This document shows positions 8,516 through 27,800 of a DNA stretch of 64,000 bases, one piece after another. The stretch's first letter is position 1. Every line of letters begins with the position of its first letter. Below the pieces are notes generated by a model. That model was not told the origin of the DNA. It worked only from the letters and a program-made list of their open reading frames with translations, and made no database searches. The position numbers and the translations under genes are program-made. The stretch is from Rhodanobacteraceae bacterium ZG21-1. Its GTDB lineage: Bacteria > Pseudomonadota > Gammaproteobacteria > Xanthomonadales > Rhodanobacteraceae. The stretch lies in the NCBI GenBank assembly GCA_021390615.1, contig JAJEJU010000024.1:930001-994000 (forward strand), given 5' to 3'.

Positions 8516-9880
8516 TCAAGCCCTGACGATCTGCGGCTGTTCGGCCTTGGGCTGATCGTTGTTCTGGGACTGGTTCGGGTTCTGCGTGGGCGTCGGGGTC
8601 GGGCTCGGCTGCGCAGACTGCGCCGCCACGCTGCTTTGCTGCATCGGCGTATTCAGGCTCTGCAGGGTCGGCACTTCGGCCACGGCCTTCATCGGCGCCG
8701 TATTCTGTGCAGCGAAGGTTTTCGAGCCGTCGGGGCTCATTTGGACTTGATCGATGCGGGTCATGCCCTCGGCCTTCGCCTGCACCACCAGGGCTGCCGC
8801 CAGGTTGGCGCTGTGCTGATCGGGCGTGCGCCCGATGGCGGCATCGAGCTTGTGGACGCCGGCCAGAGCCTGCTCGTACAGCGCATGATCGGGATTCTTG
8901 GGGTCGCTTAGCAGGCTGGTGCCCTGTGCTTTCTCGCCGGCGCCTGGCGCCTTGTCGCCGGCACCCTGGGGCGCCTTGCCCTGAGCCTGTTCGGCTTTCT
9001 TCGCCGCCTCGTCCACGGCCGCCGTGGTCTTCGCATCGGCGATGCCGTTGGTCTTCAGATTGTGATCGTCCTGGAACCGTTCCACCGCGCTGCGGGTATG
9101 CGGGCCGTAGTTGCCGGTCAGATCTTTGGCATCCAGGTAGCCGAGCCCGGCCAGCTTGGTCTGCAGCTCTTTCACCGAAGGCCCGTGCGCACCTTCTTCG
9201 AGCGTGCCGGGCGCGCCCGCGTGATGGGCGTGCGAGTGGTGCGAGTGGTGCGCATGCGTGGCGGTGTGATGCTCGGCCAGCGAAGGCCCGCGTTCCGCGA
9301 TGCCGTATTTCTGCTCGTGCTGCTGGACGAATTTCTCGTACTTGTCGAGATAAGGCATTACATCCTTCTCAGCCACCTTGAGCCCGCCATAATCCTTGGA
9401 GGGGCCGTCGTGGTGATACTTGTAGATGTACTCCTCGCCTTGTCCGCGCGACTTGGCCAGCGCCTCGTTCTCCTGGAAATGGGCGACCAGAGCATCGGCC
9501 TGCATGGTCAGGTTGCTGCGATTGCCGTCGTTGATGCCGTAGCTGGCGCCGGTCTTGTCGATGAACTGGCCCAGGCCGGTGGCCGAGGTGGTGCCGGCCG
9601 CCGCATCCAGGTTGAAGCCCGATTCGACGCGCGCCGTCGCCAGCACGTAGGCGGTTTCCCGCGGGCTCAGGCCGGCGCGCTCGGACGAGGTAATCAAGGC
9701 GTCGATCACGCGCGACTGCGCTTCCGGCGAGGCGTCGCCCCAGATGCGCGAATTGCCGGCGGGGCGACCCGGCGAGCGGTCGATCGGGTCGTCGTAGTGG
9801 CTCCACCCGACGATCTGGCTGTCCAGATAAGCCTTGCCACGCGGCTGCACCATCGAGGTGTAGGTTTCGTTCGATTCCAT
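8516..9880 (-). CDS. Probable X-T4SS antibacterial effector: lytic transglycosylase-like, PG-binding, XVIPCD domain
   Basis: 454 residues; AAGGAG lies 8 bp before the ATG. Residues about 45-190 resemble an SLT/lysozyme-like peptidoglycan hydrolase fold (ETAYVLATARVESGFN, then ATGLGQFIDKTGASYG; the Glu in ARVES is the likely catalytic acid). A His-rich linker (about 205-222) leads to a PG_binding_1 domain (GPSVKELQTKLAGLGY, then GPHTRSAVERFQDDH). Residues about 320-420 match XVIPCD, the C-terminal signal recruiting effectors to the VirD4 coupling protein of Xanthomonadales killing T4SSs: DPKNPDHALYEQAL, LAAALVVQAKAEGMTRID, SPDGSKTFAAQ, TPMQQSS, ending in a Gln/Pro/Asn-rich tail. There is no N-terminal signal peptide, as expected for direct injection. 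The cognate immunity gene is probably 9937-10521, immediately upstream. No T4SS structural genes are in the window. Confidence 0.85.
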   Translation of the reverse strand: MESNETYTSMVQPRGKAYLDSQIVGWSHYDDPIDRSPGRPAGNSRIWGDASPEAQSRVIDALITSSERAGLSPRETAYVLATARVESGFNLDAAAGTTSATGLGQFIDKTGASYGINDGNRSNLTMQADALVAHFQENEALAKSRGQGEEYIYKYHHDGPSKDYGGLKVAEKDVMPYLDKYEKFVQQHEQKYGIAERGPSLAEHHTATHAHHSHHSHAHHAGAPGTLEEGAHGPSVKELQTKLAGLGYLDAKDLTGNYGPHTRSAVERFQDDHNLKTNGIADAKTTAAVDEAAKKAEQAQGKAPQGAGDKAPGAGEKAQGTSLLSDPKNPDHALYEQALAGVHKLDAAIGRTPDQHSANLAAALVVQAKAEGMTRIDQVQMSPDGSKTFAAQNTAPMKAVAEVPTLQSLNTPMQQSSVAAQSAQPSPTPTPTQNPNQSQNNDQPKAEQPQIVRA

Positions 9881-9936: not shown

Positions 9937-10521
9937 TCATTGAATGAATTGGAGATGGGGCCGGCCCAGGCCCAGCTTGCGATCCAGCGCGTCGAATTCC
10001 GCGTTGTTGGGCGATTGCGCATGCGCGGCCGGAGCAGAGGCATCGGTGAGGATGGCCGGGTCGCTATGCGTCAGCAGTTCGCCCTGGGTGCTATAGAGAT
10101 GGAACCATTCGCAGAACTCGCAGCCTTGCGGCAGCTCGCCGTATTGCACGATGAAGTAGGGCGTGCCGTCGGTGGCCTTGGCGCAACCCAGGCCGACCGC
10201 CGTGTAGCGTTCCAGCCCCCTGGGGCGGCTCAGCTTGGTGGTCTGGCCGTCCTCGCCCTTCAGGCGCAGCGAGGTCGTGTTGCAATCGTCGCCGAGACAC
10301 TTGAGCAGCATCTCGGCCTTGCCGCAAGGCACGTCGAGCGACTTGGTCTGGGCATCGTCCGACCACGCGGGGTTCGCGACCAGCAAGGCAAGCAGGCAGC
10401 ACAGTGCAGACAGCCATGAGGCGGTTCGAATCTGGCGCCATGATGCGCCGGGCTGCTTCGATCCTGCCGGGATGACCGCATGCGGGTCAGCCATGAGTCT
10501 CTGTCTGTCGTCCATCGTCAA
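9937..10521 (-). CDS. Probable periplasmic immunity protein for the X-T4SS effector
   Basis: 194 residues. After a polar N-terminal stretch comes a hydrophobic segment (WLSALCCLLALLVANPAWS, about residues 36-54) ending in a plausible signal-peptidase site, so the mature protein should be periplasmic. The true start may be an internal codon nearer that segment. The mature part is cysteine-rich (CGKAEMLLKCLGDDC, then QGCEFCEWF). It ends 56 bp before the effector start on the same strand. In known X-Tfe/X-Tfi pairs the immunity protein is exported to protect the periplasm from a wall hydrolase; position and export signal support that role, but I recognise no immunity family. Confidence 0.65.
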   Translation of the reverse strand: MTMDDRQRLMADPHAVIPAGSKQPGASWRQIRTASWLSALCCLLALLVANPAWSDDAQTKSLDVPCGKAEMLLKCLGDDCNTTSLRLKGEDGQTTKLSRPRGLERYTAVGLGCAKATDGTPYFIVQYGELPQGCEFCEWFHLYSTQGELLTHSDPAILTDASAPAAHAQSPNNAEFDALDRKLGLGRPHLQFIQ

Positions 10522-11066
10522 GCTCCTTGAGTGATCGATGACTCGAACGATCGGAAGGTCGGCAAGGCATGCCGGAATGCGCCCGGCTGCGAGTTCCTTC
10601 CGGCATCGGCTCGAGCCCGCTTCGCGCCTGCCTGATCCTGGGTTGCGGGTCCTTGTCTCGCTTCAGGCAAGACGTTGTTGCCTGGCCCCGACCCTTCTCC
10701 ATGGAATCCTAGCAGAATCTTGCGAACGTCCCGGTACATCCTGGATGCCCTTGATGACAGTTGCCGTTTCGCATTCATATGGGCGTCTCGCGGCGATGTC
10801 GGGCGGCGATGGCAGGCGGTGGATGCAGCGGCGCCGGATTCGACGGCGCCATGCGGCGCATCCGGGCCATCTCCACGCCGTATCGAACGATGCGTGGGAC
10901 CGTCTCAGGCGAAGGGCATCGGCTGCACACCTACAGGGCGCTCGATCTGCGACGAGGGTGATCGAGGTGACCGCGCCTGCATGGCGAACATGCCTTGGCG
11001 GTGCGCGGCAGAAGCCTGGCCAGATGCCGCGGTGATGTCCGGCGTGAGTCAGCTATCTCCGCCTGC
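10522..11066. other. Intergenic region, nothing recognised
   Basis: About 545 bp between the immunity gene start and the Asn-synthetase-like gene stop, both on the minus strand. It should contain the promoter of the immunity/effector pair. Short frames on both strands show no domain or coding bias. Confidence 0.45.
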
Positions 11067-12626
11067 TCAATGCATCTGTCGCGCCAGCCGTTCCAGCCAC
11101 AGGAAATTGACCAGCGGCGCGGTAGCCGCTATCGACTGCGTGGTCGCCGCTTCGTCCAGTAGCGCGAGCGCGGCGTGCCGATCGACCAGGCCGCGGTCGG
11201 CCAGCGCGCACTCCTGCAACTGCGCGGCAATTGCTTGCCGTTGCTGCGAGATCAGCGCGGGAAACACTTGATCGAAGGTTTCCTTGACGTAGTGATGCGG
11301 GAAAACCTCGGCGCCGAGCTGGCTGCGCAGATAGCGCCGCAGGGTCTCGCGTCCCTGTCGCTGCGCCGGCGGCAGCCGATAGCAGAAGCCGGCCAGGCGA
11401 GGATCGCTCAGCGGACTGACCGGCCACAGCCCGTGCCGCAGCAGATGCGGCGCCTGACAGACGCCCGCCAGTATGGCCGGCGCCGGACCCACCGGTGCAT
11501 CGAAGGCGCGCTGCGAGCGCGCCGCAGCCAGCGCCTGCGGGGTCAGCAGACTGGCGGCGTAGCGCCTGGATTGCGTCATCTCAGGGTCGTCCCGGGCGTC
11601 GGTCCGCGCACTGTCGGAAAAAGGCATGAACAACTCGTCGCCGCCGAGGCCGGTGAACAGCAGGTCGCGGCTCTGCGCGCGCGCCGCGCGCCACAGCGCC
11701 TCGAATGCTTCCAGGTAGTACTCCACGCTCACGTAGCTCTTGTGCTGCTGCGGGCGCAGATCCAGCGACGGCGGCAGCGCGGCGATGTCCACGGTCTGGT
11801 CGAGCAGGCCGAGCTGTGTCGCCACCTGCCGGCGCCGTTCGGCCTGCGGCCTGCGGCAATCGCCGTCGAGCAGGATGCCCAGACTGGCCACCGGCCCGTA
11901 TGAGGCGGTCAGGGCGCAGGCCACCGCGGCCGAATCCATGCCACCGCTCAATTCGGTCGCGATGCGGCTGGCGCTCATGGGACGCATCGCCAGGGTCCGC
12001 TGCAGCAGTTCCGCGAAGGCGGTCGCGGCATCGACGTCTTGCGGAAGGGCAGTCGGCGCCGGCGTTTCGAACGCCGCGGGATATTGGTAATGCGTTTTGC
12101 CCGGCTCCAGATGGAACGTGGCTCGCTCGGTCAGCAGGGTGACGCCGACGCAGATCTGCCGCGCCGAATAAGCCGCGTCGAGCGCCAGATGATGGCTGGC
12201 GACTTCCAGATCGAGCGGCAGGCCCTGGCCGAGAAAATCGGCGAAGTCCCACGACACGGTGACTCGCTCGCGGGTGCTGCGGCAATACACCGGCGCGGAG
12301 CCGAGCAGGCCGGCGCGCAGCTTGATGCGACGTCCGGCCGGTGCGACTTCGATCATCACGTAGTCGAGCGGCCACAGCAGGCAGGAGCGATGCCACTGCG
12401 CGTAGCGCTCGGCGTCGACGGTTTCGGCTGCGCTGCCCGCATGCTCGTCGTTGCCGGTGAGGCGCTCCCGGATCACCGCAAACCAGCGGCTCTCGGTACG
12501 CACCAACAAGGTTTCGAGAGAGGCGTGGCGGAAGGGCTCGATCCGGCCTTGCCCCAGCACGATGGCGTCCTGTTGCCATGCGGGCGTGGAGGAAAGATCG
12601 GACCAGGCAAGATCGGCCTTGAACAT
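11067..12626 (-). CDS. Asparagine-synthetase-like (lasso-cyclase-like) amide-forming enzyme
   Basis: 519 residues from the ATG at 12626, preceded by GAGGGA; a longer upstream frame lacks protein character. The C-terminal half is an ATP-pyrophosphatase domain of the AsnB/beta-lactam synthetase/lasso cyclase superfamily: the PP-loop ELSGGMDSAAVACAL at about 221-235, then LLFTGLGGDELFMPFSDS and HHYVKETFDQVF. The N-terminal half looks like a degenerate class II amidotransferase fold without the catalytic Cys2 (it starts MFKADL), so glutamine hydrolysis is unlikely; such enzymes adenylate a carboxylate and use an amine of their own substrate. It lies downstream of two small peptide genes on the same strand, which makes a peptide-modifying, amide- or macrolactam-forming role the best inference. 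No lasso-type transglutaminase protease or RRE protein is nearby. Confidence 0.8.
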   Translation of the reverse strand: MFKADLAWSDLSSTPAWQQDAIVLGQGRIEPFRHASLETLLVRTESRWFAVIRERLTGNDEHAGSAAETVDAERYAQWHRSCLLWPLDYVMIEVAPAGRRIKLRAGLLGSAPVYCRSTRERVTVSWDFADFLGQGLPLDLEVASHHLALDAAYSARQICVGVTLLTERATFHLEPGKTHYQYPAAFETPAPTALPQDVDAATAFAELLQRTLAMRPMSASRIATELSGGMDSAAVACALTASYGPVASLGILLDGDCRRPQAERRRQVATQLGLLDQTVDIAALPPSLDLRPQQHKSYVSVEYYLEAFEALWRAARAQSRDLLFTGLGGDELFMPFSDSARTDARDDPEMTQSRRYAASLLTPQALAAARSQRAFDAPVGPAPAILAGVCQAPHLLRHGLWPVSPLSDPRLAGFCYRLPPAQRQGRETLRRYLRSQLGAEVFPHHYVKETFDQVFPALISQQRQAIAAQLQECALADRGLVDRHAALALLDEAATTQSIAATAPLVNFLWLERLARQMH

Positions 12627-13014
12627 GCGTTGTTTCCCTCGATTCGGCGTGGACACTCTCGTGGATACGACGACGCGTTTCATGGATCGCGCAGACGGGC
12701 GTCCGGGTGCTCCGTCGGTGTCGCCCGGTCGAGCCGGCACGCAGCGCATTCGCTCAGTCGAGCAGGGCCATCTGCGTCGCTGTGAGCGCGTCGACCCGAA
12801 GCATAAAGCGCAGGCTTACCGTCGATCTTCACCAATCCGCTGGCGCATCGCTGTACCGCCGTGCCGCGAACGGACATCTGGTCAGGCGACGACGCGATCG
12901 CTTCCCACATCGGCCCGATCGATTCGCAATGCTCCAGCAAGGCAGGCAAGCCTGGATCGATCCGATCGCTTCACGATGCAGCGTGGCAGGCAGAAAGCGT
13001 CCGGGCTCGCCAGG
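12627..13014. other. Spacer between peptide 1 and the Asn-synthetase-like gene; doubtful small frame
   Basis: About 390 bp. A minus-strand frame ending at 12680 is open from a TTG at 12949 or an ATG at 12910 (89 or 76 residues). Its first third has good codon bias (MWEAIASSPDQMSVRG), but it has no recognisable domain and no clear ribosome-binding site. It is not called as a gene, but it should be tested if this locus is studied, since it lies between a peptide and a candidate modifying enzyme. Confidence 0.4.
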
Positions 13015-13046
13015 AACGAAAACGCCGCCCTCGAAAGGGCGGCGTT
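13015..13046 (-). terminator. Hairpin terminator after peptide gene 1
   Basis: Exact 11-bp arms, AACGCCGCCCT (13021-13031) and AGGGCGGCGTT (13036-13046), close on a CGAA tetraloop. On the minus strand the stem is followed by GTTTTCGTT, a weak T-rich tail. The 24 bp at 13015-13038 are identical to those at 14739-14762 behind peptide gene 2. Confidence 0.75.
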
Positions 13047-13073
13047 ATGTCGAGGCGCTGATCGATCACGCGT

Positions 13074-13232
13074 CTAGCCGTGATACCAGTACCCACGGCC
13101 GTCGGTAACGCCGTCGATCAGTTTGAACGGCAAGAACATCGGCGCTTGTTCCGACATAGGCTTGTCGAGTTGAATCGCGAACGGATTCGGCTCGGCCTCG
13201 ATCTCCACGTACTTGACATTGGACAGTTGCAT
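13074..13232 (-). CDS. Small peptide 1, candidate RiPP precursor (52 aa)
   Basis: An ATG at 13232 follows GAGGGGG, and the frame ends with TAG at 13074-13076. The 52-residue product starts MQLSNVKYVEIEAE, contains NPFAIQL and PMSEQA, and ends DGRGYWYHG. It is about 63% identical (32 of 51 aligned positions) to the product of 14798-14953. Differences are mostly conservative in the first 40 residues, and both end in a Gly/Tyr-rich tail after a shared DGRGY. There is no signal peptide. Leader region, coding region and terminator are all shared with peptide 2. The Asn-synthetase-like gene lies downstream on the same strand, which suggests a substrate, but the tail has no acidic residue at core position 7-9 after a Gly, so it is not a standard lasso precursor. 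Function unknown. Confidence 0.75.
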   Translation of the reverse strand: MQLSNVKYVEIEAEPNPFAIQLDKPMSEQAPMFLPFKLIDGVTDGRGYWYHG

Positions 13233-13272
13233 AACTGTACCCCCTCAAGCATGTATGCCGCCAAACGACGGC
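13233..13272 (-). promoter_or_regulatory. Conserved 5' leader of peptide gene 1
   Basis: These 40 bp directly before the start codon match 14954-14993, before peptide gene 2, at 36 positions. They hold the GAGGG ribosome-binding site and a GCCGCC-AAAC-type inverted repeat. The conservation exceeds that expected of random spacer and suggests a shared control element or a recent duplication. Confidence 0.6.
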
Positions 13273-13592
13273 GCGCGGGACGCTAACACCGGCTCTCGCG
13301 CAGCGTCAAGGTCGTTTTGCTTGGCGGATTCGAAACCTCTTGAGCTCTTGCTCTCGGTCACAATTTCGCTGCTGGCAGGCCGCCGATGATGTCGTTTCGA
13401 GCTGCTGCGCTTCGGCTGATCTGGCCAGCGTGTGGGCTTCGATCAAAGCGCGCCAAACCTGCCGGACCTATTGCTAGGCCTGCGGCTTGCGCATCACAGC
13501 GAAAGGCCACTGGCCGGGAGTGGCGACGGCCTGGTAGCCGCGTGCCGCTTTCTCGGCGAGCGGCCGGGTTCAGGCCGGTCTGCATGCTGCGC
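13273..13592. other. Spacer upstream of peptide gene 1
   Basis: About 320 bp between peptide gene 1 and the aspartic protease stop. On the minus strand a TTGACG box with a 17-bp spacer to TTAGCG lies roughly 13279-13310 and could drive peptide gene 1; it is weak at the -10. Nothing else was seen. Confidence 0.4.
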
Positions 13593-14468
13593 TTATTGGC
13601 CCTTGGGCAACATCCACGCCCGCTTGCCGGGGATATCGATGACGATATCGTTTTTTTCGAGAAAACTGGTGCCCAGGTTTCCGTCGAGGATCAGGTCGAG
13701 TACCTTCGATGCGCCCTTGAAGGTAGTGCCGTCGGCCAGCGAGATCGACACGTCCTGCTTCTCCGCTTCCGGCGACAGCCCGAACAACCCGGCCAGATGC
13801 TTGCCCACCAGCACCAGTCCGCTGCTGTTGCCCGAGTCGACTTCGAACCACGCGGTGCCTTGCCTGGTTTTCACCGGCAGGTCGATGGTGAGCGCCGCGC
13901 CTTGTGCGTCGCGGACCACGCGGACCTGCATCGGGGTTTTGCCCCGCAGAGCCTGGATGTCGTTGGGGCGAGTGAGAATGTCCAGGGTTCGCCCCGAGTA
14001 CGAGAAGCGCAGCGTCTTGTCCGGGAACAGGTCCAGCGACAAGGAGCCGTCGATGTGCGGGCTGTTCGGCGGCAGCAGGGCCGAATAGTCCAGGACCATC
14101 AGGGTTTCCGCGTGGACCTGGCTCTTGCCGATGCTGACCGCAGCATCGTCGCAGCGCTGGCCGTTCAACTTTTCGCCCTGCATGCGGAAGCCGGTGATCT
14201 GACCCCAAGGCTTGCAGCCGATCGACGCCGCGAACTGCGGCGAAATCGTGCTCACGCCGCCGCCCGTATCGAACAGGAAGGTGCCCGGCTTGCCGTTCAC
14301 CACGGCATGGATGGTCAGGCCGAGATCGGTCGAGTTCAGCGGAATTTTCTCGGCCTGACTCGTTGCGGCAACAGCAAAAAGCAAGGCGGCAGCGCTGAGC
14401 CTCAGCACGCGCCGCGCGGCTTTCGAAGGCGAAGGCGAAGCTGGTCGCGAAGTCATCGAGATGGCCAT
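13593..14468 (-). CDS. Exported retropepsin/pepsin-like aspartic protease
   Basis: 291 residues from the ATG at 14468. The N-terminus is a signal peptide or anchor (about residues 19-39, RRVLRLSAAALLFAVAATSQA). Two aspartic-protease signatures are present: FLFDTGGG with Asp67, and FEVDSGNSSG with Asp211. Each lies at the start of a beta-rich half, so one chain carries both catalytic aspartates, as in bilobal bacterial aspartic proteases. The C-terminus GTSFLEKNDIVIDIPGKRAWML is typical of the family. It sits between two paralogous peptide genes on the same strand, so processing of the exported peptides is an attractive but unproven role; many such proteases are simply periplasmic. Confidence 0.82.
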   Translation of the reverse strand: MAISMTSRPASPSPSKAARRVLRLSAAALLFAVAATSQAEKIPLNSTDLGLTIHAVVNGKPGTFLFDTGGGVSTISPQFAASIGCKPWGQITGFRMQGEKLNGQRCDDAAVSIGKSQVHAETLMVLDYSALLPPNSPHIDGSLSLDLFPDKTLRFSYSGRTLDILTRPNDIQALRGKTPMQVRVVRDAQGAALTIDLPVKTRQGTAWFEVDSGNSSGLVLVGKHLAGLFGLSPEAEKQDVSISLADGTTFKGASKVLDLILDGNLGTSFLEKNDIVIDIPGKRAWMLPKGQ

Positions 14469-14738
14469 GCAGGGTTCCAAAGGTGTGCTCGTGGAGGCGA
14501 TGATCCTAGGCCGGGCTGGGCACGATGAGTGCCGGATTGCACTTTGACTTTGCGTCTGGGTATTAGCCGAAGCTTGCTTAGATGAGACTTTGCGCTGCCG
14601 GCCGCCAGGCGACAACGCCCCTGCATTCATTGCGGGCCCGATCGGCTCAGGTCATGCCGGCGCGGGGAATCAGATCGGCTCAATCCGATCGCCTGCACCG
14701 TGCAGGCAAACCCGCAGGAAACCCATGGACCTGTCGCA

Positions 14739-14769
14739 AACGAAAACGCCGCCCTCGAAAGGACGGCGT
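14739..14769 (-). terminator. Hairpin terminator after peptide gene 2
   Basis: The arms at 14745-14755 and 14760-14769 form the same stem as that behind peptide 1, here with one mismatch (AGGAC in place of AGGGC), closed by CGAA. The T-rich tail on the minus strand is again GTTTTCGTTT. Confidence 0.7.
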
Positions 14770-14797
14770 CATCTCGGCGCGCCGACGGATCGCGCGC

Positions 14798-14953
14798 CTA
14801 GCCGCGATAGTATCCGCGGCCGTCATAAAGCCCGGCGGTCAGTTTCAGCGGGATGAAGATCGACGCCTGTTCCGCCATGGGCTCTTCGAGCTGCACCGCG
14901 AAGGGATTCAGCTCGCCCTCGATTTCTACGCACTTGGTTTCGGACAGTTGCAT
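14798..14953 (-). CDS. Small peptide 2, paralogue of peptide 1, candidate RiPP precursor (51 aa)
   Basis: An ATG at 14953 follows GAGGGA, and the frame ends with TAG at 14798-14800. The product starts MQLSETKCVEIEGE, has NPFAVQL and PMAEQAS, and ends DGRGYYRG. Compared with peptide 1 it carries a Cys at position 8 and lacks one residue near the C-terminus. Most differences are I/V, D/E, S/A or L/F type, which indicates selection on the protein rather than drift. The unit (leader, gene, hairpin) lies upstream of the aspartic protease gene, and its unit-mate lies downstream. Function unknown; see peptide 1 for the precursor interpretation. Confidence 0.75.
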   Translation of the reverse strand: MQLSETKCVEIEGELNPFAVQLEEPMAEQASIFIPLKLTAGLYDGRGYYRG

Positions 14954-14993
14954 AACCGTACTCCCTCAAGCATGCATGCCGCCAAACGGCGGC
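14954..14993 (-). promoter_or_regulatory. Conserved 5' leader of peptide gene 2
   Basis: This copy shares 36 of 40 bp with the leader at 13233-13272. It contains a perfect TGCCGCC/GGCGGCA inverted repeat around AAAC (14978-14995 region), which in copy 1 is imperfect. Confidence 0.6.
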
Positions 14994-15136
14994 ACGCTCA
15001 AGCCTAACATCGGGCCTTGCACGCCGACTTGCATGGTCGACACGAAAGCTCGTTGCGGCCCCTCGCAGTCAGTCACGACCGTCGTTTTCATGAGCTGCAT
15101 CACAGCTTCCCGCCTGGGAAGCGCAACGCTCGCGAT

Positions 15137-16294
15137 TCAGTCGGGAAGCGTCTGGCTCGGATTGCTTGCATTCACCGAGGCGGACAAGCTGGCCGGATCG
15201 ACTTTTCGAAGCTGCGCCCATGCGATCAGGTTCGGCGGCCGATAGCTCGAATCGGCTTTCCAGCGCGCGAATACACTGGCGTCGATCGATTCGTTGATGG
15301 TGTTGACGCGCCCGGCGTCCGTATCCACCGGATCGACCCCGATCGGGCGGTAATAGTGCTTGCCCAGCGTCACGATCTCGTAAATGCCGTGGGCCATCTC
15401 GGCCAACGAATCGCGGATCGGGCAGGCCGTGGCTTCTTCGTCGAGTTCCACGCTGTCCTTGAATTGCAGGCCGTGTTCGATCGCCTTGTCCATCAGCCAT
15501 TTCAGCGGGGCCTGAGCGAGCAGGTCGTTCTCGTAGCCGCCGCCGACATTGGCATGGGCTCCCACGAACCAGCGCTGCTCGACCTGGGAGAAGTCGCGCG
15601 GCGGTGGCGTCAGGCCTGAGGGCGGCGTGGTTTTCTTCCATAGCGTCGGCGCGAAGGCCTCGCGATGCTCGTCGATGGCCAGCGCGTGGTAGCCATGGGT
15701 ATCGTTGATGTGGAAATCGGTTTCGAGGAAATTGAAATCGCTGCGGCTGACGTGGGGCATCAAGGGAATCGGCATGCCCAGCGTGCCCACGGTATCCCAG
15801 ACGCCTTGAAACCACACCGGGATCGAACGCGAATACTTTTTCAGCCAGCGGTCTTCCTGGCTCAGGTCGCCCGTCGCATGCTGGAGCGCGCCGATCGAGG
15901 CGGCATTGCCTTTACGGTAGCGCTCGTAGAGCTGATTCAGGGACATCGGCGAGCCGGGCTTGAGCAGGCCGCACTTCGAGATAAAGCCGGCCAGGCTGCG
16001 CGCGGTGAAGGCGCCCCGGCTGAAGCCGAAGATGAAAATCTGGTTGCTGTCGTCGTAGTTTTCGATCAGCCATTCGTAGGCGGCGATCACTTCCTCGTTG
16101 ATGCCGATGCCGAATGCGCCGCCGAGCAGCTTTTCGCCTTTCTGCGTGCCGACCCCGGCGCTGTAGTAGACCTTCTGTTCCGGCGACACCGCGCACAGCG
16201 ACTTCAGTCGCCATACGTTGGTATTGTCGTTGCTCGTGTTCCAGGTGCCGTCCAGGAACAAGGCGACGCGGTTCGGCTTGAGGCTGTCGGGCAT
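15137..16294 (-). CDS. DUF2235/Tle1-type alpha/beta-hydrolase (phospholipase effector family)
   Basis: 385 residues from the ATG at 16294, preceded by AAGGA at 7-bp spacing; a longer upstream frame is arginine-rich and unlikely. The N-terminus RVALFLDGTWNTSNDNTNV and the nucleophile elbow IFGFSRGAFTARSLAGF (GxSxG) are hallmarks of DUF2235, the catalytic domain of T6SS Tle1 phospholipases. FVGAHANVGGGY supplies the usual later His/Asp region. There is no signal peptide, no XVIPCD tail, and no VgrG, Hcp, PAAR or obvious immunity gene beside it, so either an orphan effector or a housekeeping hydrolase is possible. It lies just upstream of peptide gene 2 on the same strand. Confidence 0.85.
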   Translation of the reverse strand: MPDSLKPNRVALFLDGTWNTSNDNTNVWRLKSLCAVSPEQKVYYSAGVGTQKGEKLLGGAFGIGINEEVIAAYEWLIENYDDSNQIFIFGFSRGAFTARSLAGFISKCGLLKPGSPMSLNQLYERYRKGNAASIGALQHATGDLSQEDRWLKKYSRSIPVWFQGVWDTVGTLGMPIPLMPHVSRSDFNFLETDFHINDTHGYHALAIDEHREAFAPTLWKKTTPPSGLTPPPRDFSQVEQRWFVGAHANVGGGYENDLLAQAPLKWLMDKAIEHGLQFKDSVELDEEATACPIRDSLAEMAHGIYEIVTLGKHYYRPIGVDPVDTDAGRVNTINESIDASVFARWKADSSYRPPNLIAWAQLRKVDPASLSASVNASNPSQTLPD

Positions 16295-16515
16295 GAAGCT
16301 GTCCTTGGAAGAGTGGATGAGCGGGCTGGCTGCAGGTGAAACGGCGAACGGCGAGAACTCCTCCGGCCGGCTCGATGCGGGGCGGCTTGCCGATGTAAGC
16401 CCCTGATCGAAGCAGCCGGTCCGCGGCGATCGCCGGTGTCGCCTGCTGGCACGCCGTATTCCTGTCCACGGCCCGTGCCATTCGCCGAGATGCTGCAGCC
16501 GCCGGCCCTGCCGTC

Positions 16516-17349
16516 TCACCCGTCAGTCGAACGCGTGGTTTTCTCCCACCGATCGATCTCCGCCGTCAAGTCAGAAATTTGCTGACGCACCAGGCCGAGC
16601 GCGTCGCTGCCGAGCAGCAGGTGCGCCGGCGGCGAGTCGCTGTCGATCACCTGCAGCATGGCCCGCGCCGCCTTGACGGGATCGCCCAGCTGCTTGCCGC
16701 TCTTTTGTTGGCGGCCTTCCCGGATCGGCGCGAACAGTTCGTCGTAGTCGGCAATCGAGCGGGGCGTCCTCACCATCGAGCGTCCGGCCCAGTCGGTGCG
16801 GAACGAACCGGGCGCGACCGCGGTCACCGCGATGCCGAGCGGCTTCACTTCCTTGCCCAGCGCTTCGGAGATGCCTTCCAGCGCGAACTTGCTGCCGCAA
16901 TAGTAGGCAATGCCGGGCAGGGTGATATGGCCGCCCATCGAGGTGATGTTGAGGATGTGCCCGCGGCGGCGTCGGCGCATATGCGGCAGCACGGCCTTGA
17001 TCGTCGCCACCGCGCCGAACACGTTGACGTCGAACTGCCGCCGCATCTCGGCCAGCGGCGATTCCTCCAGCACGCCTTCGTGGCCATAGCCGGCGTTGTT
17101 GACCAGCACGTCCACTGGACCCACGTTCGCTTCGATCTCCGCCACCACGCCGTCGATCGCCTCGAAGTCGGTGACGTCGAGCAGGCGCCCCACGGCCTCG
17201 CCGGCGGCCAGCGCCTCGAACTCGCGCCGGGCCTGTTCGTTGCGCACGGTGCCCACCACGCGATGGCCGGCGGCGAGCGCCTCCTGGGCCAGCGCGCGGC
17301 CGAACCCGCTGCTCACCCCGGTAATAAGCAAAGTTTTGCTGGCTGACAT
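16516..17349 (-). CDS. Short-chain dehydrogenase/reductase
   Basis: 277 residues from the ATG at 17349. The classical SDR features are the NAD(P)-binding TGVSSGFGRAL near the N-terminus, VLVNNAGYGHEGV, the catalytic Ser in NITSMGG, and YYCGSKFALEG (Tyr-x-x-x-Lys). The arginine after TGV...TVRNEQ suggests NADP preference. The substrate is unknown. It is divergently paired with an AraC regulator whose ATG is 111 bp away; such SDR/AraC pairs are common and the regulator usually controls the SDR. Confidence 0.9.
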   Translation of the reverse strand: MSASKTLLITGVSSGFGRALAQEALAAGHRVVGTVRNEQARREFEALAAGEAVGRLLDVTDFEAIDGVVAEIEANVGPVDVLVNNAGYGHEGVLEESPLAEMRRQFDVNVFGAVATIKAVLPHMRRRRRGHILNITSMGGHITLPGIAYYCGSKFALEGISEALGKEVKPLGIAVTAVAPGSFRTDWAGRSMVRTPRSIADYDELFAPIREGRQQKSGKQLGDPVKAARAMLQVIDSDSPPAHLLLGSDALGLVRQQISDLTAEIDRWEKTTRSTDG

Positions 17350-18820: not shown

Positions 18821-21800
18821 TCAAGCCGGTTGCGCGCATAGCTGCCGATAACGCCAGGTCACATATTTCCTCAGCAGTTCGGCCGTCATCAACGGGGCAG
18901 GCATGCCTTCGCCGTCCAGCTCGGCCACGGCATTGCTCAGTTCGATCCGCGTCGGCGCCGCGTCGTCGTCGTGGGACTCGGCCAGCTCGACCGGCATCAC
19001 CGTCGCCAGGCGGTGGGTTGCTTCGTGCTCGCTGCACAGCTGTCGCCATTGACGGTAGTCGATGGACTCGACCGCGAGGTCCTCGATTGCCGCGATCTGC
19101 CGGGCCAGCTCGCCCAATGCGAACGACTGAGGGGCCGACAGGTTGAGGCTGCGCCCGCGCATGCCTTTGCGCAGCGACAGCTCGACGATGCACTCGCTCA
19201 TATAGTCCACCGGCAGCGAGTTGATGTGGGTGTCGACCACCGGTACCCGCTCGAGCCGCAGGCAGGCATCGATGAACAGGCTCCAGGTATCGCTGGCGTT
19301 GCTGGCACCGTCCTGGCTGGCGCAGCCGATATGCGTCGGCCGGTAGATGGTGTAGGGAATGCCGCGTTCGCCGCCGAGGCGCAGCAGGCGTTCGGCCACC
19401 CATTTGCTTTGCGCGTAGCCGGAGGCGAGGCCGGGCCAGTACTCGGCCAGCTGCGCCTCGGTAGCGATGTCAGGGCCGGCCGAGGCCGGCAGAGGAAGGG
19501 TGCTCAGGGTGGACACGTAGTGCACGTGCTTGGGCGCGCCGCGGGCGGCCAGACGCAGGATCTCTTCGGTGCCGCGCACGTTGGCGGCCTTCAGGCTCGC
19601 ATAGGTGTGCAGCGAATTGACCCAGGCGCCGTTGTGGTAGATCACCTCGATCAGCTCGCCGAGCTGCTCGAAGCGTTCCGGTTCCAGGCCGAACAGGGGC
19701 AAGGCCAGGTCGCCGGCGACCACCGCGACGCGCGTGCGGTCGTAGCCGGCCAGGCCGAGCTGGCGCATGTTCGCGTCTAGCCTGCTGCGGCCCTCGGCCG
19801 CATCGTTGCAGCGGATCAGGCAGTGCACGGTGGCCTGCGTGCGTCGCAACAGGGAGGCCAGCAGGAAGGCGCCGAGAAAGCCCGAGGCGCCGGTCAGCAG
19901 GATGTGCTGCGGCGGATATTCCTGCGTCGCCGGTGCGCCGGCGCGGATGGCCTCGTCGAGCAGCACTTCCGCGGCGAGATCGAGCGCGGTGGCTGGCGTG
20001 TTCGCCGCGTCGGCGGTGACGAGGGCGGCCATGTCCTTCAGCACGGGATGGCTGAACAGTTCGCGCACCGGGATCGTCTTGCCGAAACTCTCGTGCATGC
20101 GCGCCACCAGCTGGGTGACCAGCAGCGAATGGCCGCCCAGCTCGAAGAAGTGATCGTGGCGGCCGATCCGCTCGACGCCGAGCAGGGCCTGCCACATGGC
20201 GGCGAGCGCACTCTCAGCCTCGTCCTGCGGCGGCGCATAGTCGCGGTGGGCATAAGCCTGGTCGTCCGGTGCGGGCAGGGCCTTGCGATCCAGCTTGCCG
20301 TGGGCGGTGAGCGGCAGCGACGGCAGCAGCACGAAGGCGCTGGGCAGCATGTAGTCGGGCAGGCGCGCGGCAAGGTGCTCGCGCAGCGCGGCGGCCAGCT
20401 CCTGTTTCGCGCGATCGACTACCACATAGGCGACCAGGCGCGGTGCGCCCGGATGATCCTCGCGTGCGAGCACGGCGTTTTCGCGCACCGACGGATGCGC
20501 AGCGAGGTTCGCTTCGATCTCGCCCAGCTCGATGCGGAAGCCGCGCAGCTTGACCTGCTGGTCGTTGCGCCCGAGGAAGACCAGGTTGCCGTCCGCCAGC
20601 TGGCGCATCAAGTCGCCGCTGCGGTACATGCGCGCGCCGGGGCGGCCGTCGAAGGGATCGTGCAGGAAGCGTTCGGCGCTCAGCTCGGGTCGGTCGAGAT
20701 AGCCGCGGGCCACGCCGCCGCCGCCGATGTACAGCTCGCCGACGCTGCCGCGCGGCACCGGCTGGCCATGCTCGTCGAGCAGGTACAGGCGCGTGTTGGC
20801 CAGCGGTCGGCCGACCGGCACGGCGGTCAGCTCGCCGGCACCGTCCGGGCAGACCCAGACGCTGGCGCACACGGTGATCTCGGTGGGGCCGTAGGCATTG
20901 GCCAGCCGGGCGTGGCGCTGCCAGCTGTGCAGCAGGCCGGGGCTGGAAGCCTCGCCGGCGAGGATCAGGGTGGGCCGGTGTGTCCACGCTGGCGCGTCGG
21001 CATGGCCTTGCAGAAAGGCCGGCGGCAGGGTGGCGTGGGTGATGCGGTGGCGCCCGATGAAGGCGAGGAAGGCCGCGGGATGCTGCCGCTCGGTGGTGGA
21101 AGGCAGATACAGCGCGCCGCCCACGGCCAGCGCCATCGCGCTTTCGAACACGCTGGCGTCGAAGCCGATCGAGGCGAACTGGCTGACCCGGCTGTCGGCG
21201 TCGACGGCTAGCCGTTCGCTCAGCGAGAGGCCGAGGTTGATTACGCCGTGATGCTCGACCATCACGCCCTTCGGCATGCCGGTCGAACCGGACGTGTAGA
21301 TGATGTAGGCCAAATGGCTCGCGTCGAGGCCGGCGACCTGGGGATCCTCGGCCGGGCAAGCGACCCAGCTGCGCTCGTCGGCGAGATCGAGCAAGTCCAC
21401 CGCCGCGAGCGCAGCGGCGCCGAGCGCAGCGCGTCCTGCCTCATCGCACAGCAGCAGACGCGGCGCCGCGTCGCGCAGGATGTGCTCGAGCCGGGCCGAG
21501 GCGTAGGCCGGGTCCAGCGGCACATAGGCACCGCCGGTCTTGAGGATGCCGAGCAGGCCGACGAACAGCGCGAGGCCCTTGTCGGCGCACAGCGCGACGC
21601 GGTCGCCCGGGCGCACGCCCAGCCCGATCAGGTGATGCGCCAGCCGGTTGGCCCGAGCGTTCCAGTCGGCATAGGAAAGCTGTTCCGGTCCGCACACCAG
21701 CGCGGTCGCCTGCGGCGATTCGCGCGCCCAGCGTTCCACCCATTGATGCATGCACAGCTGTTGCGGATACGGCGTGTCCGTGCGGTTCCACTGTTCCAGC

Positions 21801-24800
21801 AGCAGCTGCCGCTCGTCAGCGGACAGCATCGGCAGCTGGCCGGGCGCACGTGCATCGCCGGCGGCGATCGCTTCCAGCAGGGTGCGCAGATAGCCGGCGT
21901 GACGATCGATCGTGGCAGGGTCGAACAAGGCGCTGGCGTAGTTGAAACCGCCCTGGATGTGGCCGTCCGCTTCGCCCAGGATCAGCTCCAGATCGAACTT
22001 GACCCAATCGAATCCGCCCTGGACCGGCTCGGTCGCGATGCCGGGAAGTTCGAGCCGGCCCTCGTCGTGGCTTTGCCAGGCGAACAGCACCTGCACCAGC
22101 GGCGTGCGGTCGATGCGCCGCGGCACCTGCGCGAGCTCCACCACCTGCTCGAACGGCAGCTCCTGATGCGCCTGCGCTTCCAGCGCCACCTGACGCACCT
22201 GGGTCAACAGCGAGGGCAGGTCGTCCGCTGCGGCCAGGTCGATGCGCAGGGCTAGCGTGTTGACGAAGAAGCCGATCAGCGGCTCGAGTTCCTGCCGGCC
22301 GCGGCCTGCAGTCGGCGTGCCGATCAGCACCTCCTGCTGGCCGGCCAGGCGAGACAGCACGGTGGCCCAGGCGGCGAGCAGCAGCATGAACAAGGTGACG
22401 CCGTGGCGCTGAGCCAATTGCCTGAGCTCGTGGCTCAGCTCCGGCTCCAGCACGAACGGCAGGAAGGCGCCCTCGAACGATTGCCGTGCGGGGCGCGGGC
22501 GATCGACAGGCAGTTCCAGCAGGGTCGGCGCCCCGGCCAGGCGCTGGCGCCAGTACGCCGCCTGCTCGGCCAGGCGATCGCTGCCCAGGCGCCGATGTTC
22601 CCAGGCGGCGTAATCGGCGTATTGGATCGGCAGCGGTGCCAGCGTGTCGCCGTGCGCCTCGCGCGCAGCGGCGTAGCAGGCGCCGAGCTCGCGGGCGAGG
22701 ATGCCCAGCGACCAGCCGTCGGCGACGATATGGTGCAGGGTCAGCTGCAGCACATGGTCGTGCTCGCCGAGGCGCGCCAGGCTGGCGCGGATCAGCGGGC
22801 CGGCAGCCAGGTCGAATGGCCGATTGCGTTCGGCAGCGAGCCACTGCGTCAGCGCCGCTTCGACATCGGGCGAACGGCTCAGCTCCTGTTCGTGCAGAGC
22901 CAGGGCGGAGTCGGCCGGCAGCAGCCTGGCGTAGGGCTGGCCGTGTTCGGCGGCGAACACCGTACGCAGGCTTTCGTGGCGCGCGTATACGCGCTGCAGC
23001 GCTGCGCGCAGGGCATCGATATCCAGCGCGCCGTCGAGGCGCACGGCATAGGGAATATGGTAGGTGGCGCTGTCGCCATCCAGCTGGGCCAGGAACCACA
23101 GGCGCTGCTGGGCATGCGAGAGCGGCTGCCGCTCGCCGCGCGGCGTCGCCGGGATAAGCTCATGAGAATCGTTGCCGGCTTCGCCCGGCGCATCGGCCAG
23201 CAGCTCGGCGAGATCATGCAGCACCGGTCGCGCGAACAGCGTGGCCAGCGGTACGGCGACGCCGAAGGCGCGGGCGATGCGGCTGAGCAGGCGCACGGCG
23301 ATCAGCGAATGCCCGCCGAGCTCGAAGAAGTGATCGTGGCGGCCGACCTGGTCCACGCCGAGCAGCTCCTGCCACAGCCGCGCCAGTTCGATTTCCGCTT
23401 CACCCTGCGGCGGCTCGTAGCGCGAACGGGCGAAGGCCTGTTCGTCCGGCGCCGGCAGGGCGTGGCGATCCAGCTTGCCGTGCGCGGTCAGCGGAATCGC
23501 CTCCAGCGTGACGAAGGCCGCCGGCACCATATAGGCCGGCAGCAGACTGGCGAGGTGCGCGTGCAGCGTCGCGGGCAAGCCGTCGGCGCGTCCCTGCGGC
23601 ACCACGTAGGCGACCAGCTGCAGATCGCCGAGCGCATCGTTGCGTGCCAGCACCGCGCATTCGCGCACGCCGGCATGCTCGGCCAGGCGCGCCTCGATCT
23701 CGCCGAGCTCGATGCGGAAGCCGCGCACCTTCACCTGGTGGTCGTTGCGGCCGAGGTATACCAGCCGGCCGTCGGGCAGCTGGCGTACCAGATCGCCGGT
23801 GCGATACATGCGCGCGTCGGGGCGGGCGTCGAAGGGATCGTCGAGGAAGCGCTCGGCGGTGAGCTCGGCGCGGCCGAGATAGCCGCGCGCGATGCCGAGG
23901 CCGCCGATGTGCAGTTCGCCGGCTGCGCCCAGCGGCACCGGCTGGCCGTGGCGGTCGAGCAGGTAGGCACGCGCGTTGGCGATCGGACGGCCGATCGGCA
24001 CGTGGCTGGTCGCTGCGGCGATGGCGCCGGGCGCCAGCGTCTGCGCGGTGACCACATGGGTTTCGGTGGGGCCGTAGTGGTTGTGCAGGCCGCAGGCCGG
24101 CAGTCGCGCGAACAGGCGCTGGATCTGCGGGGTCAAGCGCAGCTGCTCGCCGGCGACGATGATCTCGCGCAGCTCGGGCAGCAGGCCGGCCGCCGGCTGC
24201 GGCAGCTCGTCCGCGGCCTCGGCCAGCGTCTGCAGCGCGATATACGGAAGAAAGATCCGCTGCACACGCTGCCGGTCGATCAGTTCGATCAGTCGATCGA
24301 ACTGCAGCCGCGTCTGGGCATCGACCAGCACCAGCGCGGCGCCGGTGCACAGGCTGCTGAAGATTTCCTGGAAGGCCACGTCGAAGCCCAGCGCGGCGAA
24401 CTGCAGGGTGCGCGGCGCGGGCAGGCCGCTGTGCACGGCCTCGTTGCGCTGCCAGTGGACGAGATTGATCAGGGGGCGGTGCGGCATCGCCACGCCCTTC
24501 GGCGTGCCGGTGGAGCCGGAGGTGTAGATCACGTAGGCGAGTCGCTCGGCGCCGGCATCGGGCAGCGGTGCCGGATCGTCGGTGGGCAGCCCGTCGCAGC
24601 GTTCGGCCAGTCCGTCGAGCTCGAGCACGCGGTGCACGGCCAGCGCGCGTGCGCCCAATGCGTGGCGCCCGACCGCATCGCCGAGCACCAGCTCGGCGTC
24701 GGCTTCGGCCAGCACCTGCAGCAGGCGCTCGCTCGGATAGGAAGGGTCCAGCGGCACGTAGCAGGCGCCGGCCTTGAGGATGGCCAGCAGGCCGGCGACC

Positions 24801-27800
24801 ATGTCGAAGCCGCGCTCGGCGCACAGCGCGACGCGCTGGTCGACGCGCCCTTCCGCGCCGATGCCGAGCGCGCGCAGATGATGCGCCCACTGGTTGGCCT
24901 GTGCGTTCAGGCGCGCATAGCTGAGCCGCTGCTCGCCGTGGATCAGGGCGATCGCCTGCGGCGACTGCGCGGCCTGCCGCTCGAACAGCCGGTGGATGCC
25001 GACGTCCTGCGGATAATCCGCGCCGGTGTCGTTCCAGCGCGCCAGCAGCGCCTGTTCGGCGGGGCCGGCCAGTGGCGCCTGCGAGAGTGGCAGCGCCGGC
25101 TGGGCGACCATCGCCTCGAGCACGCTGGACAGGTAGCCGACATGCCGCTCGATGGTGGCCTGGTCGAACAGCGCGGCGGCGTAGCCGAGGCCGCCGACCA
25201 CGACGTCGTCGTGTTCGTACAGATGCAGCTCCAGGTCGTAGCGGATCGCCTCCAGCGACATCGGGGCCTGCTCGATCTCCAGGCCCGGCAGCTCGAAGCG
25301 GCTCTTGTCGTTGCTCTGCCAGGCGAACAACACCTGGAACAGCGGCGAGTGATCCAGCCGGCGCGCCGGGCGGGCAATCTCCACCACCTGTTCGAACGGC
25401 AGATCCTGGTGCTCCTGCGCGGCCAGGGTGGTGCGGCGCACGCGCGCCAGCAGCTCGACGGTGTCGGGCTCGCCGGAGAGGTCGATGCGCAAGGCCAGCG
25501 TGCTGACGAAGAAGCCGATCAGCGGCTCGATTTCGGCTTGGCCGCGGTTGGCCGACAGCGTGCCGATCATGACGTCGTCCTGCCCGGACAGCCGGGCCAG
25601 CACGCTCGCCCAGGCGGCGGTGAGCAGCATGTACAGGCTCACGCCGTGCTGCGTGCCGAGCTGCCGCAGGCGACGGGTCAGCGCGGCATCCAGCTTCACT
25701 GGAAGCATCGCGCCCGCGAACGACTGACGCGGCGGCCGTGGCCGGTCGGTGGGCAGGTTCAACAGATCGGGCGCGCCGCGCAGGGCGCGCTGCCAATACT
25801 CGGCCTGGCCGCGCAAGCGTTCGCTGGAGAGCACCGCACGCTGCCAGCCGGCATAGTCGGGATACTGCACCGGCAGCGGCGGCAGCTGCACCGGCCGCTG
25901 TTGCGACAGCGCCGGGTAGAGTGCGCTGATCTCGCGCGCCAGCAGGTTGACTGACCAGCCGTCCGAGACGATGTGGTGCATGCCCAGCAGCAGCACGTGC
26001 TGCCGTTCCGAGAGGCGCAGCAGCGCCGCGCGGATCAGCGGGCCGCGCTCGAGATCGAACGGCGCCTGCGCATGCTCGCGGCTGTGGCGCGCCAGCAAGG
26101 CCTCCGCATCGTGCGCATCGCGCAGGTCATGTTCGACGAAGAGGCATCGCGTATCGGCCGGTAGCAGGATCGCGACCGGCTCGCCGTCGCGCGAGCGGAA
26201 CACCGTGCGCAAAGCCTCGTGGCGCGCGAGCAACTGATCGAGGCTGCGACGCAGCGCATCGACGTCCAGTACGCCCTGCATGCGCAGCACCAGCGAGACG
26301 TGGTAGGTCGCGTTGGCGTTGTCCAGCTGGGCCATGAACCACAGGCGCTGCTGCGCGTAGGACAGCGGGAGATACTCGCCGCGCGCCAGCGGCAGGATCG
26401 GCGGCAGGCCTGGCTGGCCGCCGTCCTTGCGGCCGGACTCGATCGCCGCGGCCAGTCCGGCGAGGGTCGGATGGTTGAACAGGCTGGCCAGCGGCAGCGT
26501 GCTGCCGAAGGCCTGTGCCACCTGGCCGAGCAGGCGGATGGCGATCAGCGAATGGCCGCCCAATTCGAAGAAGTGATCGTGCCGACCAACGCGTTCGACG
26601 CCGAGCAGTTCGCACCACAGCGCGGCCAGGGCGATCTCGGTCTCGCCGGTCGGCGGCTCGTAGGCGCGATGGGCGAAGGCCTGCTCGCCGGGCGCGGGCA
26701 GGGCCTGGCGGTCGAGCTTGCCGTTGGGCGTCAGCGGAAACGCCTCGAGGCGCACGAAGGCCGCAGGCACCATGTAGTTCGGCAGCTCGGCGGCCAGGTG
26801 ACTGCGCCAGGCGCCGACTAGGGCGTCGTCGGGGCCGGCGTCGGCCGCTGCCGTCACGTAGGCGACCAGGCGCTTGTCCTGGGCTTCGCCCAGGGCCAGC
26901 ACGACGGCCTCGCGTACGCTAGTGTGATGCGCCAGTCGGCTCTCGATCTCGCCCAGCTCGATGCGGTAGCCACGGATCTTCACCTGATTGTCGTTGCGGC
27001 CGAGGAATTCGATCTCGCCGTTCGGCAGATGGCGGCCCAGATCGCCGGTGCGATACATGCGCGCATCGGAGGCGGGCGAGAACGGATCGGCCAGGAATCG
27101 CTCGGCGCTGAGTTCGGGACGATGCAGATAGCCCCGCGCCACGCCCGTGCCGCCGATATACAGCTCGCCTACCGCGCCTAGCGGCACCGGCTGGCGCCGC
27201 GTGTCGAGCAGGTAGACCCGCGTGTTCGGGAGCGGACGGCCGATCGAGGAGACTCGCAGCTCCTGTTCCACCGGCAGCAGGGTGGCGTTGACCGTGGTTT
27301 CGGTGGGGCCGTAGGCATTGAACAGCCGTGGGCGATGGCCGCGGCGGCCCAGCCAGCGCGCCACCGCAGGCAGGCTCATGGCGTCGCCGCCGACGCTGAC
27401 CAGGCGCAGGCAGGCTGGAAGTTCCAGTTCGGGCTGGGCCAGGGCCAGCTGGGCCCAGAACGCGCTGGGAAGATTGAGCGAGCTCAGCCGCTGCTCCGTG
27501 CAGAAAGCGGCGAAGGCCTCGGGAGAGCCCAGGCATTCGTCGGTGCGCAGCACCAGGGTGGCGCCGCTGAGCAGGGCCGGGAAGATTTCTTCCACCGACA
27601 TGTCGAAGGCGATCGAGGCGAACTGCAGCAGGCGGTCTTGCGCCTGCAGGCCGTAGGCGCGCTGCAGCGCGACCACCTGATGATGGACCTGGCGATGCTC
27701 AACCATCACGCCCTTGGGCCGACCGGTCGAGCCGGAGGTGTAGATCACGTAGGCGAGATGATGCGAGGCCAGTTCGCGCACCTCGGGATCGTGCGCGGGT

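Follow-up and report, generated by a model that had tools for sequence, protein, structure and literature searches.

Enzymes of the beta-lactam synthetase type form intramolecular amides by adenylation. Among the ribosomally synthesized and post-translationally modified peptides (RiPPs), lasso peptides mostly have cores that start with Gly, and graspetides have repeated core motifs. A preprint from 2026 on nitrilobacillins names TsrC, ScdTA, PesC and the lasso cyclases as asparagine synthetase (AS)-like RiPP enzymes; it counts ~3,800 RiPP-linked AS-family candidates, of which ~3,500 are lasso-related and ~300 uncharacterised (PMC13060819). Here, we examined a 64,000-nucleotide stretch of the Rhodanobacteraceae bacterium ZG21-1 genome (contig JAJEJU010000024.1, positions 930,001 to 994,000; hereafter the window), in which two short peptide genes accompany the gene of an AS-like enzyme. 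Our analysis suggests that this locus is very likely a member of a widespread two-gene system of RiPP type, in which the enzyme probably closes an isopeptide macrolactam between a conserved Lys and a conserved Asp of the peptide.

The peptide-enzyme pair and its distribution

The window holds the following peptide and enzyme genes:

13074..13232, minus strand: precursor peptide 1, 52 residues (open reading frame (ORF) list, alignment and profile match)
14798..14953, minus strand: precursor peptide 2, 51 residues (ORF list, alignment and profile match)
11067..12626, minus strand: Asn-synthetase/beta-lactam-synthetase-like enzyme, 519 residues, proposed Lys-Asp isopeptide synthetase

The two peptides are 63% identical in alignment, and each ORF is preceded by a purine-rich sequence resembling a ribosome-binding site (RBS). 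Peptide 1 has an N-terminal block (NPFAIQLDKPM) followed by Lys37-x6-Asp44 (KLIDGVTD) and the tail GRGYWYHG; in peptide 2, the Lys-x6-Asp segment reads KLTAGLYD and the tail GRGYYRG. Pfam and NCBIfam contain no family for either peptide, and eight of ten related peptides had no match in NCBIfam, the other two having chance-level matches alone. Both ORFs, with these coordinates, lengths and identity, had been given in a preliminary description of this DNA and were confirmed, as were its AS-like enzyme (PF00733, 57 bits) and its aspartic protease. The enzyme start fits better at 12626 (MFKADLAW) than at 12749: the relatives align from this position, and M1, K3 and A4 are invariant in 20/20 (the relatives' own starts being set by the nearest start codon).

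An enzyme search (E ≤ 1e-10) found matches in 31 of 233 genomes of the host's family, which represent 13 of 26 genera; the host genome itself has three copies. A profile of 22 peptides (E ≤ 0.01) also matched 31 of the 233 genomes, and these were identical to the enzyme carriers. Such identical sets would arise by chance once in 3.7e38 if genomes were independent; as they are related, 13 of 26 genera is the fairer figure. Altogether, 38 of 41 peptide matches lay no more than about 2.1 kb from an enzyme gene, and the remaining three were 13.7 kb (G104) and 20.4 kb (G117) away or on another contig (G113). An earlier peptide model had been built on most of these peptides; it recovered those of L063, L065, L066 and L078 independently. 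We conclude that the pairing of peptide and enzyme is real and not a matter of chance. The preliminary description had proposed the peptides as substrates of the AS-like enzyme and had named peptides occurring mostly without the enzyme as counter-evidence; all 31 peptide-bearing genomes have the enzyme, and its proposal is not refuted in this way. Our results support the view that the peptides are the dedicated partners of an amide-forming AS-like enzyme. As in RiPP systems generally, a short precursor is encoded with a dedicated enzyme, which would modify it.

The enzyme-remote, precursor-like peptides are located at G113:C5:30017-30184, G104:C1:2517337-2517501 and G117:C25:51140-51301, and the first of them (in L232) keeps Lys-x5-Asp. 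Two further peptide-enzyme cassettes of the host genome lie on the window's own contig (C17), at 1386220-1388088, with the peptide downstream of the enzyme, and at 1629070-1630886.

When neighbouring ORFs of at least 90 residues were clustered in 35 records (36 enzyme copies), no conserved third gene was found, the largest other cluster covering 7 of 35 records. Typically, the peptide gene comes first and is separated from the enzyme's own start by about 80-135 nt that contain a GC-rich hairpin and a T tract; the corresponding gap between peptide 1 and the enzyme in the window is ~450 nt. In the three records with enzymes closest to the window's (L063, L065, L066), the peptide comes after the enzyme, not before it. 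Two peptides per enzyme occur in the window, in L080 and in Luteimonas L109. In the host's family, 33 of 37 peptides are followed by a hairpin, compared with 0.3 expected from shuffles; the hairpin also follows 6 of 11 intermediate peptides and 1 of 22 distant ones. It may be a leaky terminator that gives more peptide than enzyme message.

To look beyond the host's family, we scanned genome contigs with the enzyme alignment and obtained 76 loci, many of them from the same host-family genomes (L097-L108, L110, L112-L117, L120 and L121 belong to the genomes of L063-L096 and were not counted again, except L110 in the 81-record search described below). Further enzyme loci were found in Luteimonas, Xanthomonas, Mesorhizobium, Bradyrhizobium and Cupriavidus and, at 24-33% identity, in Myxococcus, Sphingomonas, Gluconacetobacter, actinobacteria (with Streptomyces among the cassette carriers) and flavobacteria; the last scan matches (L159-L172) were weak and partial and were not used. 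In a plasmid collection, 44 records matched the enzyme (Rhizobium 24, Bradyrhizobium 13), 31 of them predicted to be conjugative, and seven of the 44 were inspected. Short ORFs adjoin the enzyme in nearly all inspected loci, the exceptions being L129 and L156 (partial enzyme matches with no peptide found); on the B. elkanii plasmid, no peptide is annotated and none was searched for.

An acyl-homoserine-lactone synthase gene precedes the pair on two Rhizobium plasmids, and a role of the rhizobial pairs in plant-microbe signalling or competition is conceivable. In Rhizobium johnstonii 3841 pRL10 (L177, 3691-5431), such a synthase gene and nifHDK flank the cassette, whose enzyme gene is interrupted by in-frame stops; an annotated longer copy follows the same kind of synthase gene in R. 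indicum (L235, 3269-5099). One actinobacterial-type peptide-enzyme pair was also found on a 110-kb IMG/VR contig filed as viral (L231).

The Lys-x5/6-Asp pair and the predicted ring closure

Between groups, the leaders look unrelated: the window's family has NPFGIQ-D-GPM, Bradyrhizobium a Pro-rich block, and actinobacteria and Rhizobium have other sequences. K-x5-D or K-x6-D is present within the last 40 residues of all 75 assembled precursors (44 with the +6 spacing only, 11 with +7 only and 20 with both); for 21 representatives (clusters at 45% identity), shuffles give 7.0 with the motif. K..D at +6 is the most frequent residue pair at spacings 1-15, being found in 17 of the 21 clusters (next pair, 12), and the Asp is invariant in 22/22 aligned host-family peptides. 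The motif variants include KIDDVGD (Luteibacter), KVRLPGD (Mesorhizobium), KGPLPND (Bradyrhizobium), KNRFPGD (Cupriavidus), KINEGND (Myxococcus), KRVDGSD (Gluconacetobacter), KIAGSSD (Kitasatospora, Streptomyces), KTSNTGD (Tenacibaculum) and KGGKPGD (Rhizobium). Left out of the 75 were L066 (peptide as in L065), L119 (as in L118), L130 (a near-copy with unclear start), L138, L139, L147, L153, L154 (core as in L136), L129, L156 and the three enzyme-remote peptides. The preliminary description had stated that no acidic residue stands at lasso spacing after a Gly, and had overlooked the Lys37/Asp44 pair.

A blind rule, which takes the nearest upstream RBS-led ORF with no choice by eye, found the motif at 28/35 host-family, 10/10 intermediate and 22/26 distant loci, compared with 63/1211 (5.2%), 6/257 (2.3%) and 21/572 (3.7%) control ORFs, respectively. 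The match at L155 was judged false (a transporter frame lies there), leaving 21/26 distant loci; the other distant misses were L146, L156, L157 and L158. Of seven host-family misses, three have the peptide downstream of the enzyme and four have another ORF nearer to it. The rule found no RBS-led ORF for one of the two L073 copies, L132 and L141.

The window enzyme scores 33.2 bits against the glutamine-hydrolysing asparagine synthase model TIGR01536 (cut-off 267.1) and 29.3 bits against the lasso cyclase model NF033535 (cut-off 525). Its PP-loop reads LSGGMDS. Position 2 is Phe, Leu or Ile in 20/20 aligned relatives; the glutaminase Cys is missing, as had been noted for the window enzyme before. 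The AlphaFold2 model (mean predicted local distance difference test score, 86.8) matched TsnB9, AsnB and beta-lactam synthetase (Z 25.4-24.9), and a sequence search of solved structures returned beta-lactam synthetase alone (E 5.5e-4). In a tree, 58 cassette-enzyme rows were separated from 19 PF13471-adjacent lasso cyclases and one AsnB by a branch with support 100/100; the tree program warns of long branches, and finer placing is unsure. For this tree, 20 near-copies or fragments among 78 enzyme rows were left out, L086 (frame broken at the assumed start) was outside these 78, and L155 and L158 were labelled 'far'. By its model and this tree, the enzyme is a protein of predicted AS/beta-lactam-synthetase fold in a clade separate from lasso cyclases.

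We propose the following mechanism. The precursor would consist of an N-terminal recognition part and a C-terminal core with Lys-x5-Asp or Lys-x6-Asp. The enzyme would bind it, and the PP-loop synthetase domain would use ATP to adenylate the side-chain carboxylate of the Asp. Attack by the conserved Lys, through its side-chain amine, would then give an isopeptide macrolactam with an expected loss of 18.01 Da. By atom counting, such a ring would have 26 members for K-x5-D and 29 for K-x6-D, which is about the size of a lasso ring. Because the nucleophile would be a side chain, no leader protease would be needed beforehand and the ring could close on the precursor without prior leader removal, which may explain the lack of an accompanying protease or RiPP recognition element (RRE). 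Host functions encoded elsewhere or, rarely, a double-Gly peptidase/ATP-binding cassette (ABC) exporter would carry out later trimming and export.

Several features, among them the lack of a lasso leader protease in these loci (see below), favour the Lys side chain as the nucleophile. Eleven kinds of residue precede Lys among the 21 clusters, which gives no sign of a common cleavage site; and in the two outliers of the clade, L155 and L158, the leaders are double-Gly-like and the Lys falls inside the presumed mature peptide. Beside L155 lie a HlyD-type protein and an ABC exporter whose C39 peptidase domain scores 110 bits (PF03412). The L158 enzyme, searched in 298 genomes of its family, matched itself alone, yielding no further double-Gly-leader members. 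What the data establish is the pairing, the conserved Lys and Asp, the predicted fold with its missing glutaminase Cys, the separate clade and the lack of lasso B2 genes in the loci; the bond, its partners, its timing, the export route and any activity of the product are inferred. We also lean, with some reserve, towards regarding the system as a new RiPP class found in at least four phyla, in which a stand-alone AS-type enzyme would need neither protease nor RRE to form a Lys-Asp side-chain macrolactam on the precursor at its full length; the tail might even thread the ring, giving a side-chain-closed lasso with its leader on.

Several observations weigh against the Lys-Asp side-chain bond. 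The Lys column is kept in only 20/22 aligned host-family peptides, both window peptides having the longer spacing and shifting by one; the 75 precursors were gathered in part by eye, once the motif had been noticed; K-x5/6-D is present in 2-5% of control ORFs; and only two members have double-Gly-like leaders, the second of which (AVAGA) is weak. A lasso peptide with its core starting at Lys would fit the spacing and tail length as well; in that case, some host protease would cut before Lys, the Lys alpha-amine would join Asp7 or Asp8 and the tail would be threaded: the +6/+7 spacing puts Asp at position 7 or 8 of a lasso ring, tails of 6-15 residues follow the motif in 19/21 clusters, and the enzyme and lasso cyclases share a superfamily. 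PF13471, the family of the lasso leader protease B2, is moreover matched by some protein elsewhere in many of the carrier genomes: at E ≤ 0.001, it is matched in 28/31 host-family genomes (22/31 over the 26-bit cut-off) and somewhere in 16/27 distant ones (none in 11/27), and a leader protease acting in trans is possible in these PF13471-carrying host-family genomes and in the distant ones. In 26 of the 28, the match reaches just 21.6-30.8 bits, mostly in frames of about 500-660 residues, and 3/31 have none; just 2/31 (G065, G173) exceed 60 bits, both on another contig than the enzyme. Six of ten intermediate-member genomes have no PF13471 match, one has 21.8 bits and three have at least 42 bits. 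The host genome has no match to PF13471 or PqqD (PF05402) at E ≤ 0.001. A profile of 19 B2 proteins matched all 19 of their own lasso loci and none of 81 cassette records, the window included, at E ≤ 0.05; one chance-level match (E 0.059) fell in a 52-residue frame. A PqqD-like RRE was absent at E ≤ 0.001 from 27/31 host-family genomes, a search that would miss a divergent RRE, and in the other four the match lies away from the enzyme loci. Lasso precursors are described, in an excerpt of PMC10368454, as having a conserved Thr at the penultimate leader position, whereas residues -1 and -2 to Lys are unconserved here, with Thr at -2 in 2/21 clusters (assuming that the core starts at Lys). An alpha-amine should also make the identity of Lys irrelevant, and in L155 and L158 the Lys is internal. 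We therefore consider lasso formation improbable, and the preliminary judgement that this is not a standard lasso locus still holds.

Alternatively, the enzyme could amidate the Asp (to Asn) or couple an outside amine to it, with Lys serving only in recognition. AS-like RiPP enzymes that perform amidation or nitrile formation exist, according to the excerpted preprint (PMC13060819), and PF00733 chemistry includes Asp activation; the missing glutaminase Cys, which deprives the enzyme of an ammonia source of its own, and the fixed +6 or +7 spacing in 75/75 precursors nonetheless make this unlikely. A regulatory or subunit-like role of the short ORF, as a small partner of the enzyme rather than its substrate, could fit the close pairing and the conserved N-terminal block, but it accords poorly with two peptides per enzyme at three loci, with extra peptides away from the enzyme and with a fast-changing tail in which only Lys and Asp are kept, and we give it very little credence. 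Equally slight is the prospect of a three-part system with the twin peptides as substrates of the window's aspartic protease, whose gene lies between both peptide genes on the same strand: among the loci compared, a homologue occurs near one other enzyme locus alone (Frateuria flava, 31% identity), and the neighbour clustering gave no conserved third gene. The protease, which the preliminary description had included in the system and which we rejected as a partner on these grounds, is probably a bystander. The overall RiPP interpretation of the preliminary description is thus kept for a non-lasso peptide-enzyme pair and given up for the protease; the chemical clue in Lys-x5/6-Asp had escaped it.

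Neighbouring genes

The other features of the window locus are as follows:

13023..13044 (about), minus strand: terminator-like GC-rich hairpin with T-rich tract, between peptide 1 and the enzyme
14745..14770, minus strand: terminator-like hairpin with T-rich tract, 3' of peptide 2
13593..14630, minus strand: clan AA aspartic protease (PF13650, 47.8 bits), between both peptide genes

A consensus terminator scan of 11000-15400 gave two terminators compared with 3.2 in shuffles, listing the hairpin after peptide 2 and missing the one after peptide 1; because this is no excess, the terminator claim rests on the hairpin survey across loci. A promoter scan of the same region reported none and is uninformative.

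The cassette sits between two genes with effector-type domains. The gene at 8516-9880 (minus strand) combines an X-Tfes XVIPCD domain (PF20410, 95.8 bits) with a peptidoglycan-binding domain and is presumably of the antibacterial X-T4SS effector type; it is followed by a 194-residue ORF without family match (9937-10521, minus strand), which, as a guess, could be its immunity protein. On the other side, 15137-16519 (minus strand) encodes a Tle1-like type VI secretion phospholipase effector domain (PF09994, 234.5 bits). Further away, a 3597-residue ORF (18821-29614, minus strand) resembles a multi-module nonribosomal peptide synthetase with a C-terminal reductase-like part, as read from the ORF with no domain search.

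At other loci, 11 actinobacterial cassettes have a homologous gene of about 180-270 residues near the enzyme, of which the L133 member matches GNAT PF00583 just over the cut-off and the L149 member matches nothing. In Mesorhizobium L118 (6533-7525) and Cupriavidus L127 (6588-7574), the gene directly after the enzyme encodes an APH-type phosphotransferase (PF01636, 70 bits). L176 (4001-6986) likewise has a phosphotransferase gene in this place, and a GNAT gene is annotated in Mesorhizobium sp. L-2-11; these neighbours possibly tailor the peptide. A prolyl-oligopeptidase-type S9 peptidase lies beside the enzyme in Sphingobium L158 (6194-8755) and Xanthomonas sacchari L175 (5965-7938); for both, the best NCBIfam match is Dpp5, and the Atxe2 lasso isopeptidase model gives 87.8 and 52.8 bits (cut-off 400). 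Such a peptidase could cut the proposed isopeptide. None of these neighbouring genes shows what the cassette does.

Comparison with known systems

In a literature search over titles and abstract starts, with subscription papers and bioRxiv thinly covered, no description of a Lys-Asp RiPP formed by an AS-like enzyme was found, and the system is apparently undescribed so far. If our proposal is true, it would represent a new bacterial route to cyclic peptides, and a single enzyme that needs only Lys and Asp six or seven residues apart, with no protease or partner, would be a simple tool for making them.

Compared with lasso cyclases (McjC type, NF033535), the cassette enzyme would likewise use an AS fold to join an amine to an Asp side chain of a ribosomal peptide, with similar ring size and tail length. 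Unlike lasso systems, the cassettes have a conserved Lys in place of the Gly with which most lasso cores begin, no Thr at -2, no B2 in the 81 records and no PqqD-like RRE in 27/31 genomes, and the enzyme falls in a clade apart from the 19 lasso cyclases (29 bits versus the 525-bit cut-off). The homologous, once GNAT-matching gene of the 11 actinobacterial loci recalls albusnodin-type lasso clusters, in which an AS-like cyclase occurs with an acetyltransferase; unlike albusnodin, which has canonical A, B and C genes in the excerpted account (PMC9266682), these loci contain no B2 gene.

Beta-lactam and carbapenam synthetases are among the closest solved folds, but they use small-molecule substrates and share 15-18% identity in structural alignments. 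Glutamine-dependent asparagine synthetase (TIGR01536) differs in its Cys at position 2, which is lacking here, and its model scores the window enzyme far below the cut-off. The single Lys-Asp pair contrasts with the repeated motifs of graspetides, and the enzyme is a PP-loop protein of AS type (PF00733) rather than an ATP-grasp enzyme, with no conserved second gene of at least 90 residues in 35 records; the predicted side-chain-to-side-chain amide on a ribosomal peptide is what the two have in common, as far as the excerpt of PMC13097080 goes. TsrC, ScdTA and PesC similarly bring an AS-like fold to a ribosomal peptide, but in the excerpted preprint they act on the C-terminal carboxylate, whereas an internal Lys and Asp are conserved here; PesC takes nitrogen from Gln or ammonia and its clusters hold a multinuclear non-heme iron-dependent oxidative (MNIO) enzyme, while the cassette enzyme has no glutaminase Cys (PMC13060819). 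Set beside these enzymes, the Lys-Asp cassette would supply uncharacterised AS-like RiPP enzymes with a predicted substrate, a predicted reaction and a test.

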